This document shows, in pieces, positions 2,854-57,320 of a stretch of DNA of 64,000 bases (position 1 is its first letter; each line of letters opens with the position of its first letter). Made by a program: the position numbers and the translations under genes. Source of the stretch: an archaeon (GTDB lineage: Archaea > Nanobdellota > Nanobdellia > Woesearchaeales > GW2011-AR9). Location of the stretch: contig JABHSG010000001.1 of assembly GCA_018697095.1 (NCBI GenBank), forward strand, positions 1-64,000, in the 5' to 3' direction. Under the pieces are notes generated by a model that was not told the origin of the DNA, did no database searches, and worked only from the letters and a program-made list of their open reading frames with translations.

Positions 2854-3333
2854 TTAACGTTTTCGCTTCTTAGCTGGTTTTTTCTTAGCTGCCTTCTTTT
2901 TCTTAGCAGGAGCTTTCTTTTTAGCTACCTTCTTTTTCTTAGCAGGAGCCTTCTTTTTAGCAGCCTTCTTTTTCTTAGCAGGAGCTTTCTTCTTAACAGC
3001 TTTTTTCTTCTTAGCTACTTTTCTTTTAGTAGTCTTTTTCTTAACTGCCTTTTTCTTAGCTACTTTTCTTTTAGTAGTCTTTTTCTTTTTAGAAGCACTT
3101 CGTCCACGAGCCATCTTAGCACGACAAACATTTCCATTACCATCAATAAAATAAAGGTAACCTGATTCCTTCTTAACACCAACTTTAACTACTTTTTTAC
3201 GTTTAGCTTTACCTTTCTTACGTCCAGCTCGACTCATTTCAGCACGGCTCACGTCTCCATCTTTATCGATGAAGTACAAAAAACCTTTCTCTTTTTTTAA
3301 TTTAGTTTTAGCAACAACTTGTATTTTTGCCAT
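2854..3333 (-). CDS. Lys/Ala-rich histone-H1-like protein with duplicated motif
   Basis: 159 aa. The N-terminal half carries two copies of a short unit, K-K-E-x-G-[FY]-L-Y-F-I-D-x-[DN]-G-[DN]-V-x-R-A-[EK]-M, at about residues 14-34 and 54-74. The C-terminal half (about 78-159) is almost only Lys, Ala, Pro and Arg, with repeats of KKKAPAKKKK and KKTTKRKVAKK like eukaryotic H1 or bacterial HC1/AlgP tails. Inference: a nucleic-acid-binding, chromatin-compacting protein; the paired motif may be a small binding fold. A GAGAGGTAA ribosome-binding site precedes the ATG, behind a short GGTC/GACC hairpin. No enzyme signature is seen. Confidence 0.8.
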   Translation of the reverse strand: MAKIQVVAKTKLKKEKGFLYFIDKDGDVSRAEMSRAGRKKGKAKRKKVVKVGVKKESGYLYFIDGNGNVCRAKMARGRSASKKKKTTKRKVAKKKAVKKKTTKRKVAKKKKAVKKKAPAKKKKAAKKKAPAKKKKVAKKKAPAKKKKAAKKKPAKKRKR

Positions 3334-3586: not shown

Positions 3587-4300
3587 CTAAAAAACCATTT
3601 TTTCAGAAGAGAAAAAGCCAATTTCTTTTAAATCACGCAAATTAACGCAATTAAAATCTTGAACTATCCTAGGGCAACCAGTGTTCACCCAAGAATCCAC
3701 ACAATTAAAATCTTCTAACTTCATAAAATTAATATTATCTGTAAGAAAAACTAAAATGTTTTTTCCTCTATTAGCCATAGCAGACCGAAATTGTTCAACT
3801 GACCTATTTTGGTTTTGTCCAGGTTTACGAGTAACTAAAATCCCAATATTTTTTGATTCAATAAATTTAGCAAGTCTAGCATTCTTCTGCTTCTTAAGTC
3901 TCCCAAGATAGCTTTGATCAAGTACAGTGACTTTTTTACCACGAGGTTCATACATAATTACTGGCATCTCATTACGAAACAAAAGTGCAGTTGGGTGAAA
4001 AAGACCATCTCCTAGGTACAAAAAACCATATCCATCAGTTAAAACCTCATCACTGTTATCAAGTTTAGCTTCGAATTTGAAAACATCACAGCCAAGTATT
4101 TGGCCAGGGTACTGCCCATGCCTTGATTTGAACAAAATAACTGTTTTCCCAGCTGCCTCTAATTTTAAACGAACAGAAGCTAAAAAATCTAAATATTGGA
4201 TATTAGAACAAAGTACAACAATAGAAGGTAATTTATCAAATAACTCGGTAGTCAATTCAACTTTCCCTTTGTATTTTACTTCAACAAATAGTGCTTTCAT
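3587..4300 (-). CDS. dph2: Diphthamide synthase Dph2, C-terminal part of a split gene
   Basis: Dph2 is the radical-SAM-like 4Fe-4S enzyme that moves the aminocarboxypropyl group of SAM onto a histidine of aEF2. This 237-aa protein matches only the last two thirds of archaeal Dph2: GQYPGQILGC holds the second cluster cysteine, and TGCPRI near the end holds the third. The N-terminal third with the first cysteine is missing here and lies at 55395-55676. Start: a GTG at 4318 would add six residues, but it abuts the TATA box (4321-4332), so the ATG at 4300, 26 nt downstream, is the leaderless start. Identification is firm; that the two parts assemble is inference. Confidence 0.9.
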   Translation of the reverse strand: MKALFVEVKYKGKVELTTELFDKLPSIVVLCSNIQYLDFLASVRLKLEAAGKTVILFKSRHGQYPGQILGCDVFKFEAKLDNSDEVLTDGYGFLYLGDGLFHPTALLFRNEMPVIMYEPRGKKVTVLDQSYLGRLKKQKNARLAKFIESKNIGILVTRKPGQNQNRSVEQFRSAMANRGKNILVFLTDNINFMKLEDFNCVDSWVNTGCPRIVQDFNCVNLRDLKEIGFFSSEKMVF

Positions 4301-4320
4301 AAACCTCAAAAAACACACTT

Positions 4321-4332
4321 TTTATTTATAGC
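4321..4332 (-). promoter_or_regulatory. TATA box of the Dph2 C-terminal gene
   Basis: GCTATAAATAAA on the minus strand, centred 26 nt upstream of the ATG at 4300. It decides the start codon and shows this half-gene has its own promoter. Confidence 0.6.
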
Positions 4333-55394: not shown

Positions 55395-55676
55395 TCAATA
55401 CTTCCAAACACTATGTCCAAAAGCTAAAAATAAATCAAATCCATTTACATTCGGAGTATCACAAGCACCATAACAATCTCCTGCCCAAAAAGTGATTAAA
55501 AGCTCAGGGATCGCAGCCAATAATTCTTCTTGGATAACAGCAGCCTTTGGTTTCAAACCATCTGGAAGCTGAACTAAGACAGTTTTATGGCCTTCTGCTT
55601 TAATTTTAGAAATTGCTTTATCAAGTTCTAAGTTTAGTGTCAAATTACTTCCTTCAAAAGCTTCACTTATTTCCAT
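55395..55676 (-). CDS. dph2: Diphthamide synthase Dph2, N-terminal part of a split gene
   Basis: 93 aa. Matches only the first third of archaeal Dph2: KTVLVQLPDGLKPKA, then GDCYGACD (first cluster cysteine, C72) and FLAFGHSVWKY, after which a TGA stop follows exactly where the family continues with the second domain. The rest of the enzyme is the separate gene at 3587-4300, which begins at the matching point. A TATA-like ATGTTTAAAAAAG at 55697-55709 lies 27 nt before the ATG. Not a frameshift: the continuation is 51 kb away. Confidence 0.88.
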   Translation of the reverse strand: MEISEAFEGSNLTLNLELDKAISKIKAEGHKTVLVQLPDGLKPKAAVIQEELLAAIPELLITFWAGDCYGACDTPNVNGFDLFLAFGHSVWKY

Positions 55677-55696
55677 AAGCCACTATAAACAAAGCT

Positions 55697-55709
55697 CTTT
55701 TTTAAACAT
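55697..55709 (-). promoter_or_regulatory. TATA box of the Dph2 N-terminal gene
   Basis: Minus-strand ATGTTTAAAAAAG, 27 nt from the ATG at 55676; the fragment has its own expression signal. Confidence 0.5.
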
Positions 55710-55809: not shown

Positions 55810-56163
55810 ATGGTAAAAAGACCAGTAGTAGGGCTAACTGAAAACATTATCTTACTTAGTAAAAACCAAAATCAAGCTACAAAACAACTAATTGCTAGAA
55901 TAGATACAGGTGCAACACTTTCTTCAATTGACCAGAAACTAGCTAAAGAATTAGAATTAGGACCTGTAATTAGAGAAAAGATTGTCAAACAACAAACTGG
56001 AAAAACAAGACGTCCAGTAATTAAAGCTACAATCACAATTAAAAATCTAAAAATCACAGATGAATTTTCAGTAGCTGACAGAAAAAACATGAAATTCCCA
56101 GTACTAATTGGCCAAAACATCCTAAAAAAAGGAGCATTCATGGTTGATCCATTAATCAAATAA
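55810..56163 (+). CDS. rimB: RimB-like retropepsin-fold protease
   Basis: 117 aa. Contains IARIDTGATLSSID with D32-T-G-A, the aspartyl-protease active-site motif of the retropepsin-like Zn_protease/RimB family, and VLIGQNILKKGAFMVDP at the C-terminus. In bacteria RimB trims the glutamate tail that RimK adds to ribosomal protein S6. RimK follows 74 nt downstream, supporting the pair. A TATA box GCCTTATAAAAC is about 30 nt before the ATG. Confidence 0.87.
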   Translation: MVKRPVVGLTENIILLSKNQNQATKQLIARIDTGATLSSIDQKLAKELELGPVIREKIVKQQTGKTRRPVIKATITIKNLKITDEFSVADRKNMKFPVLIGQNILKKGAFMVDPLIK

Positions 56164-56237
56164 ATAACATCTTCAAAAATTAAAATAATTATTAAATCAA
56201 AATACTAACACAAGTTACAAATTCAGAGAAAAATAAC

Positions 56238-57320
56238 ATGAAAGGCGCAGTAATTTCACTTGGATCCAAGTCATCAAAGATGACAGTAGAAGCTATGCAA
56301 GAATATTTTGATGAAGTAGATATGATTCAACTCAAAAAGATAGAAATTGTACTTGGTAAAGATGCTGGAGTTTACTATGAAGGAAAACCCATGCAACACT
56401 ACGATTGTATTTATGTGAAAGGTTCATTTCGCTACGCAAATCTTCTCAGGTCCATCACAAGCATGTTAGAGAAAAAAATACCATACCTCCCACTCCCTTC
56501 AAGCGCATTTACAATTGTACATAATAAATTATTAACTCATCTTGCCCTGCAACAACATAATATTCCAATGCCAAAAACTTATCTTTCTTCAACTGTTGAA
56601 GAAGCAAAAGTACTTCTTAAAAAAGTTAATTATCCAATTGTAATGAAGTTTCCTGAAGGAACCCAAGGTAAAGGGGTAGTCTTTGCAGATTCAATTTCAT
56701 CAGCTTCTTCACTTCTTGACGCTTTTTCAGCACTTAATCAACCATTCATCATTCAAGAATACATTGAAACAGGCGGAGAAGACCTTCGAGTGATTGTAGT
56801 AGGAGACAAAGCAATTGCTGCTATGACTCGTAAAGCAACTACTGACGAAAAAAGAGCTAATATTCATGCAGGTGGAACTGGGCAAGCAGCTCAAATCAGC
56901 CATGAAGTTGCAACTCTTGCAATTAAAACCGCTAGAGCACTTGGAGCAGACGTTGCAGGCGTTGATATTTTAGAAAGTCCAAAAGGACCACTTGTACTTG
57001 AAGCAAATATATCTCCAGGTTTACAAGGAGTAAGTGCTGCTCACCCTAATTTAAACATCGCTTTAGAAATTGCAAAATATTTTGCAAAAAAAACGCAGCA
57101 TGCTCTAAGATCTTTACATATTGAAGACACCAGAGTCACCCTTAAAGAGATGCAAAATAAAGAAGAAGGTAAAAACGAACTTATTACTGGATTACAATTT
57201 AAAGGAGATAGAATTGTTCTTCCAACTGTGATCACAAAAACAACTGGTTTTAACGCCCACGAGAATTATGTCATTAAAAGTAAAAAAGGCAAATTAGAAA
57301 TCACAGAATTCAATTTATAA
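56238..57320 (+). CDS. rimK: RimK-family ATP-grasp glutamate ligase
   Basis: 360 aa. N-terminal RimK domain then ATP-grasp: YLPLPSSAFTIVHNKLLTHL, PIVMKFPEGTQGKGVVFAD, FIIQEYIETGGEDLRVIVVG, DVAGVDILESPKGPLVLEAN. Adds glutamates (or another amino acid) to a protein or small molecule such as a coenzyme. The extra C-terminal ~70 residues (ITGLQFKGDRIVLPTVITK) are a small beta domain typical of archaeal RimK/LysX relatives. The target in this cell is unknown. Confidence 0.9.
   Translation: MKGAVISLGSKSSKMTVEAMQEYFDEVDMIQLKKIEIVLGKDAGVYYEGKPMQHYDCIYVKGSFRYANLLRSITSMLEKKIPYLPLPSSAFTIVHNKLLTHLALQQHNIPMPKTYLSSTVEEAKVLLKKVNYPIVMKFPEGTQGKGVVFADSISSASSLLDAFSALNQPFIIQEYIETGGEDLRVIVVGDKAIAAMTRKATTDEKRANIHAGGTGQAAQISHEVATLAIKTARALGADVAGVDILESPKGPLVLEANISPGLQGVSAAHPNLNIALEIAKYFAKKTQHALRSLHIEDTRVTLKEMQNKEEGKNELITGLQFKGDRIVLPTVITKTTGFNAHENYVIKSKKGKLEITEFNL

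Follow-up and report, generated by a model that had tools for sequence, protein, structure and literature searches.

A two-gene Dph2 in a Woesearchaeota-type archaeon, a further example of a split diphthamide synthesis enzyme in DPANN archaea

The locus analyzed here raises the question of whether an archaeon can encode a single Dph2 in two genes that lie far apart on its chromosome. Diphthamide synthesis begins with Dph2, a non-canonical radical-SAM [4Fe-4S] enzyme that cleaves SAM to a 3-amino-3-carboxypropyl (ACP) radical and adds this group to a histidine of the protein-synthesis factor aEF2. In the 64,000-nt stretch of DNA that we analyzed (the window), which forms the start of a 288-kb contig from a Woesearchaeota-type DPANN archaeon, two ORFs resembling different parts of this enzyme occur 51,094 bp apart. 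We consider it highly probable (roughly 0.9) that the two genes encode two parts of one Dph2, that they are transcribed apart and their products associate after translation, and that the ancestral gene was split once, deep in the class.

The N-half of dph2 is located at window positions 55395 to 55676 on the minus strand and encodes 93 aa, including C72 in a GACD motif; its product terminates in DLFLAFGHSVWKY, shortly past GHSVWKY. The C-half (3587 to 4300, minus strand) encodes 237 aa with C71 (in ILGC) and C209 (in TGCP). In profile searches, the N-half matched TIGR00322 above that model's cut-off (E=3e-13) and PF01866 over positions 1-56 with 23.7 bits, under the Pfam cut-off of 33.2. The C-half matched positions 64-271 of PF01866 above the cut-off (E=2e-34) as well as TIGR03682, the archaeal Dph2 equivalog model (E=7e-35). 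The two ORFs together span positions 1-271 of PF01866 with zero overlap, which bears out the initial annotation of their products as complementary parts of Dph2, and strong matches of both halves in a PDB search were to Dph2 only. The start of the C-half, an ATG at 4300, is common to relatives (M[KE].LF), and an in-frame GTG is present six codons upstream of it. Adjoining the C-half is a gene (window 2854-3333, minus strand) for a 159-aa protein, possibly nucleic-acid-binding, in which a FLYFIDKDGDVSRAEMSR-like motif occurs twice and which has a long tail rich in lysine and alanine. Divergent from the N-half (window 55810-57320, plus strand) is a gene for a 117-aa retropepsin-like protein of the Zn_protease family (PF05618), followed by one for a putative RimK-type ATP-grasp ligase of 360 aa.

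The cysteines expected to bind the cluster are divided between the two products. When aligned residue by residue with Dph2 of P. horikoshii, C72 of the N-half corresponds to C59, and C71 and C209 of the C-half to C163 and C287. These three residues are the established [4Fe-4S] ligands of the P. horikoshii enzyme (PMC11048331), and the alignment agrees with the earlier proposal that the halves together rebuild all three. Since the full ligand set is absent from either half alone, each half would be needed. The motif G[ASG]CD is kept in all 61 distinct N-halves, whose ends fall 3 to 17 residues past the GH motif, and C71 and C209 are invariant among aligned C-halves (22 and 34 aligned relatives). 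As far as tested, relatives showed no loss of conserved residues.

The place of the cut was examined in a relative (L111) with neighbouring halves in the same reading frame (GW-TAA-N-M), by folding an artificial read-through chain in which the TAA was kept as a residue; in this chain the TAA falls at residue 91 and the C-half methionine at residue 93. The prediction had a pLDDT of 89 and a pTM of 0.84. Its 15 best PDB matches were all Dph2, with TM-scores of 0.68-0.84 across ~330 columns (the whole length), and no non-Dph2 structure with a TM-score >0.3 was among the matches listed. Read as one chain, this relative of the window pair is therefore predicted to adopt the three-domain fold of Dph2. 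Strands of domain 1 in the model lie at 22-27, 49-52, 74-78 and 94-98, and domain 2 runs from 121. The repeat in domain 2 comprises a strand with GDG at 180-184, a helix and a strand at 206-211, and N-half tails resemble the GDGxFHP motif of that domain. Because of this repeat pattern, strand 94-98 appears to be the last of domain 1, and the cut therefore lies inside domain 1, at the boundary of strands 3 and 4. The initial annotation had put it between the first and second domains, a placement at odds with both the model topology and the internal repeat. To judge from the topology, the C-half would complete the domain 1 sheet by strand pairing.

By analogy with the known chemistry of Dph2, the two products most likely assemble into a normal [4Fe-4S] enzyme. 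The halves would be transcribed separately and associate once translated. The N-half would supply the first cluster cysteine and the opening three strands of domain 1; the fourth and final strand of that domain, domains 2 and 3 in full and the remaining two cysteines would come from the C-half. The [4Fe-4S] site would then be built from one N-half cysteine and two C-half cysteines. Since known Dph2 is a dimer, the active form would presumably be a 2+2 complex, and the assembled enzyme would transfer ACP to aEF2. Separate transcription is consistent with the TATA-like boxes on the minus strand upstream of the N-half (TTTAAAAA, approximately 55696 to 55706) and the C-half (TATAAATA, approximately 4320 to 4332), each centred 26 nt before its ATG. 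Both 8-mers score 7/8 consensus matches at -26. An equally good box precedes 23% of window ORF starts for ORFs of at least 120 aa vs. a background of 3.7% for window ATGs that do not start such an ORF. The TATA box previously ascribed to each half was thus recovered; the leaderless ATG ascribed along with it agrees with the position of the box, as far as a consensus match can suggest.

The remainder of the pathway is represented in the same genome. Both Dph5 (E=2e-83) and Dph6 (E=3e-56) are encoded, and the aEF2 loop LHEDAIHRGPAQMYP (HEDAIHRGPAQ) contains the target histidine. Dph6 occupies the C-terminal region of a protein of 714 aa (contig C1, L056:1474-3618, minus strand), and the N-terminal region of this protein consists of a class-II glutamine amidotransferase and an asparagine synthase. 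AsnB-Dph6 fusions are known from a few archaea and are a possible ammonia source (PMC3541065).

Related genomes carry the same cut. Most relatives that have a name are Candidatus Woesearchaeota, and the nearest are ~50% identical. We compared 58 genomes from the window's family and order, counting its own: a dph2 family match was found in 57, an intact dph2 ORF in none, and both halves with the same cut were visible in at least 51. The halves are unlinked in 26 of these 51 pairs (on different contigs in 22, and 11.7 to 289 kb apart on a shared contig in four), close to each other with N preceding C in 20, and in tandem in five, of which four share a reading frame and are parted by one stop. 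In a larger sample of 147 genomes from the window's class, 145 had a dph2 family match and nearly all were split; N-matches end at ~58 of the profile and C-matches begin at ~62. Ten genomes of this sample have an intact dph2 ORF (330-347 aa). The expectation that relatives share the cut is thereby borne out in the family and order and throughout the class sample. Several individual cases were also recorded. Woesearchaeota-type dph2 C-halves occur on contigs named as bacterial (L068, Aminicenantes; L118, candidate division LCP-89), which are probably mis-binned, and one C-half (L099:1764-2480) is broken by an in-frame stop. In three close relatives (L152, L159 and L164), a putative Spt5/NusG-like gene lies directly upstream of the N-half or overlaps it. 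The window N-half has no such gene upstream, unlike those three; it is placed elsewhere and has therefore moved and been retained.

These data bear on three other explanations of the pair. The split could be an assembly artefact, or an intact dph2 could reside in sequence absent from the assembly, which is an incomplete draft (94.5% complete, 1.28 Mb in 4 contigs); ten genomes of the class do have an intact gene. One of them, G108 from the same order, has three family matches, among them an intact dph2 (L032) and a split C-half (contig C1:741126-741671). We give this explanation very little credence, since the halves lie on one contig, each with its own start, stop and TATA-like box, and none of the 58 genomes has an intact ORF. 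A frameshift or a contig-edge artefact is ruled out by the 51-kb distance on one contig together with the same cut in relatives, which upholds the view of a stable split gene. A full-length dph2 elsewhere in the genome was not found by a family search of the 4 contigs (1.28 Mb, 94.5% complete).

The two remaining explanations concern function. That the halves are decaying remnants in an organism that no longer makes diphthamide might be expected from the reduced genomes of DPANN archaea and from an N-half that scores under the Pfam cut-off (23.7 vs. 33.2 bits). However, open frames and cluster cysteines are retained across dozens of genomes, the window's genome retains Dph5, Dph6 and the aEF2 histidine, and the N-half has persisted even after relocation beside other neighbours, so that decay is highly improbable, if perhaps marginally less so than an artefact. 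The halves might instead work separately, the C-half at another task and the N-half as an independent small protein, as their lack of linkage in many genomes could suggest. We find this as hard to credit as an assembly artefact: each half has only a partial ligand set, both co-occur in most sampled genomes, the C-half alone would be three domain 1 strands short in the L111 model, and in one clade the halves are adjacent, N then C. The reading that we prefer is thus still that of two parts of one Dph2.

The split is ancient in this archaeal group. In a tree of C-halves, every split copy fell in one clade (support 92) and all but one of the ten intact copies from the class in a separate clade (support 100); the copy from L040, on a very long branch, lay outside both. 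A tree of concatenated N- and C-halves gave the split clade a support of 99. Within it, linked pairs formed one clade (99) nested among unlinked pairs, and the window grouped with an unlinked pair from G003 (99). The linked-pair clade mixes members of the window's own family with Pacearchaeota-named genomes and is scattered over several families. In an AU test on the C-halves, a tree with the unlinked copies on one side of a branch was not rejected (p=0.56), so that linkage may be either ancestral or regained. A single origin of the split is suggested by support values of 92-99, obtained without bootstrap. We picture one split event deep in this DPANN class, after which the halves would have separated or rejoined across lineages. 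A fuller scenario, to which we give somewhat less than an even chance, is that dph2 was cut a single time, long ago, at a set position in domain 1, which made a two-gene Dph2 obligate in nearly the whole class, with the sheet and the Fe-S cluster completed in trans; that the linked clade re-formed (or kept) a unit passed between lineages; and that in a few genomes an intact gene was gained or retained.

The pair resembles archaeal Dph2 (TIGR03682/PF01866; PDB 3lzc, 3lzd, 6bxk-6bxo, 6q2d, 6q2e) in sequence, in its three cysteines, in predicted fold and in pathway context. In contrast to archaeal Dph2 of known structure, whose subunits are single chains, each subunit here would come from two genes, and no intact copy was found. 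This two-gene state is the mark of a published split variant and is distinct from the chemistry that defines the Dph2 family. Split DPH2 was reported in the Nanoarchaeota for Nst1 (Nst 222-440; Podar 2013, PMC3655853, Table 1), likewise as two non-neighbouring genes in a DPANN archaeon. The likeness is to the published description, and Nst1 belongs to a different lineage from the window's organism. Split Dph1/2 genes are also noted by Dombrowski 2019 (PMC6349945), with reference to Narrowe 2018 (doi 10.1093/gbe/evy154), for some members of the Woesearchaeota, Pacearchaeota, Parvarchaeota and Altiarchaeota. On that second-hand account, they represent the same phenomenon in the same lineage, of which the window's genome is a further case. 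The eukaryotic Dph1-Dph2 heterodimer also requires two gene products for the first diphthamide step; however, Dph1 and Dph2 are full-length paralogues with a cluster each (PMC11048331), in contrast to two parts of one chain with one cluster. The window pair thus fits the published description of split Dph2 in DPANN archaea, two genes for one Dph2 in a Woesearchaeota-type host, and is a well-documented further example of a phenomenon reported from 2013 to 2019, not a discovery. Our literature searches returned no reports of split dph2 beyond Podar 2013 and Dombrowski 2019, the latter citing Narrowe 2018. The class-wide count, the tree, the position of the cut in domain 1 and the linked-pair clade may go beyond published accounts, with Narrowe 2018 represented here through its citation in Dombrowski 2019.

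Annotation pipelines may overlook a short N-half such as this one, which is under the Pfam cut-off, and Dph2 may then be called truncated or diphthamide synthesis incomplete. With its cluster ligands divided over two independently expressed proteins, the split Dph2 would be a natural split Fe-S enzyme. It could serve as an evolutionary marker inside the DPANN archaea, and it could also be used to study how a [4Fe-4S] site is completed in trans.
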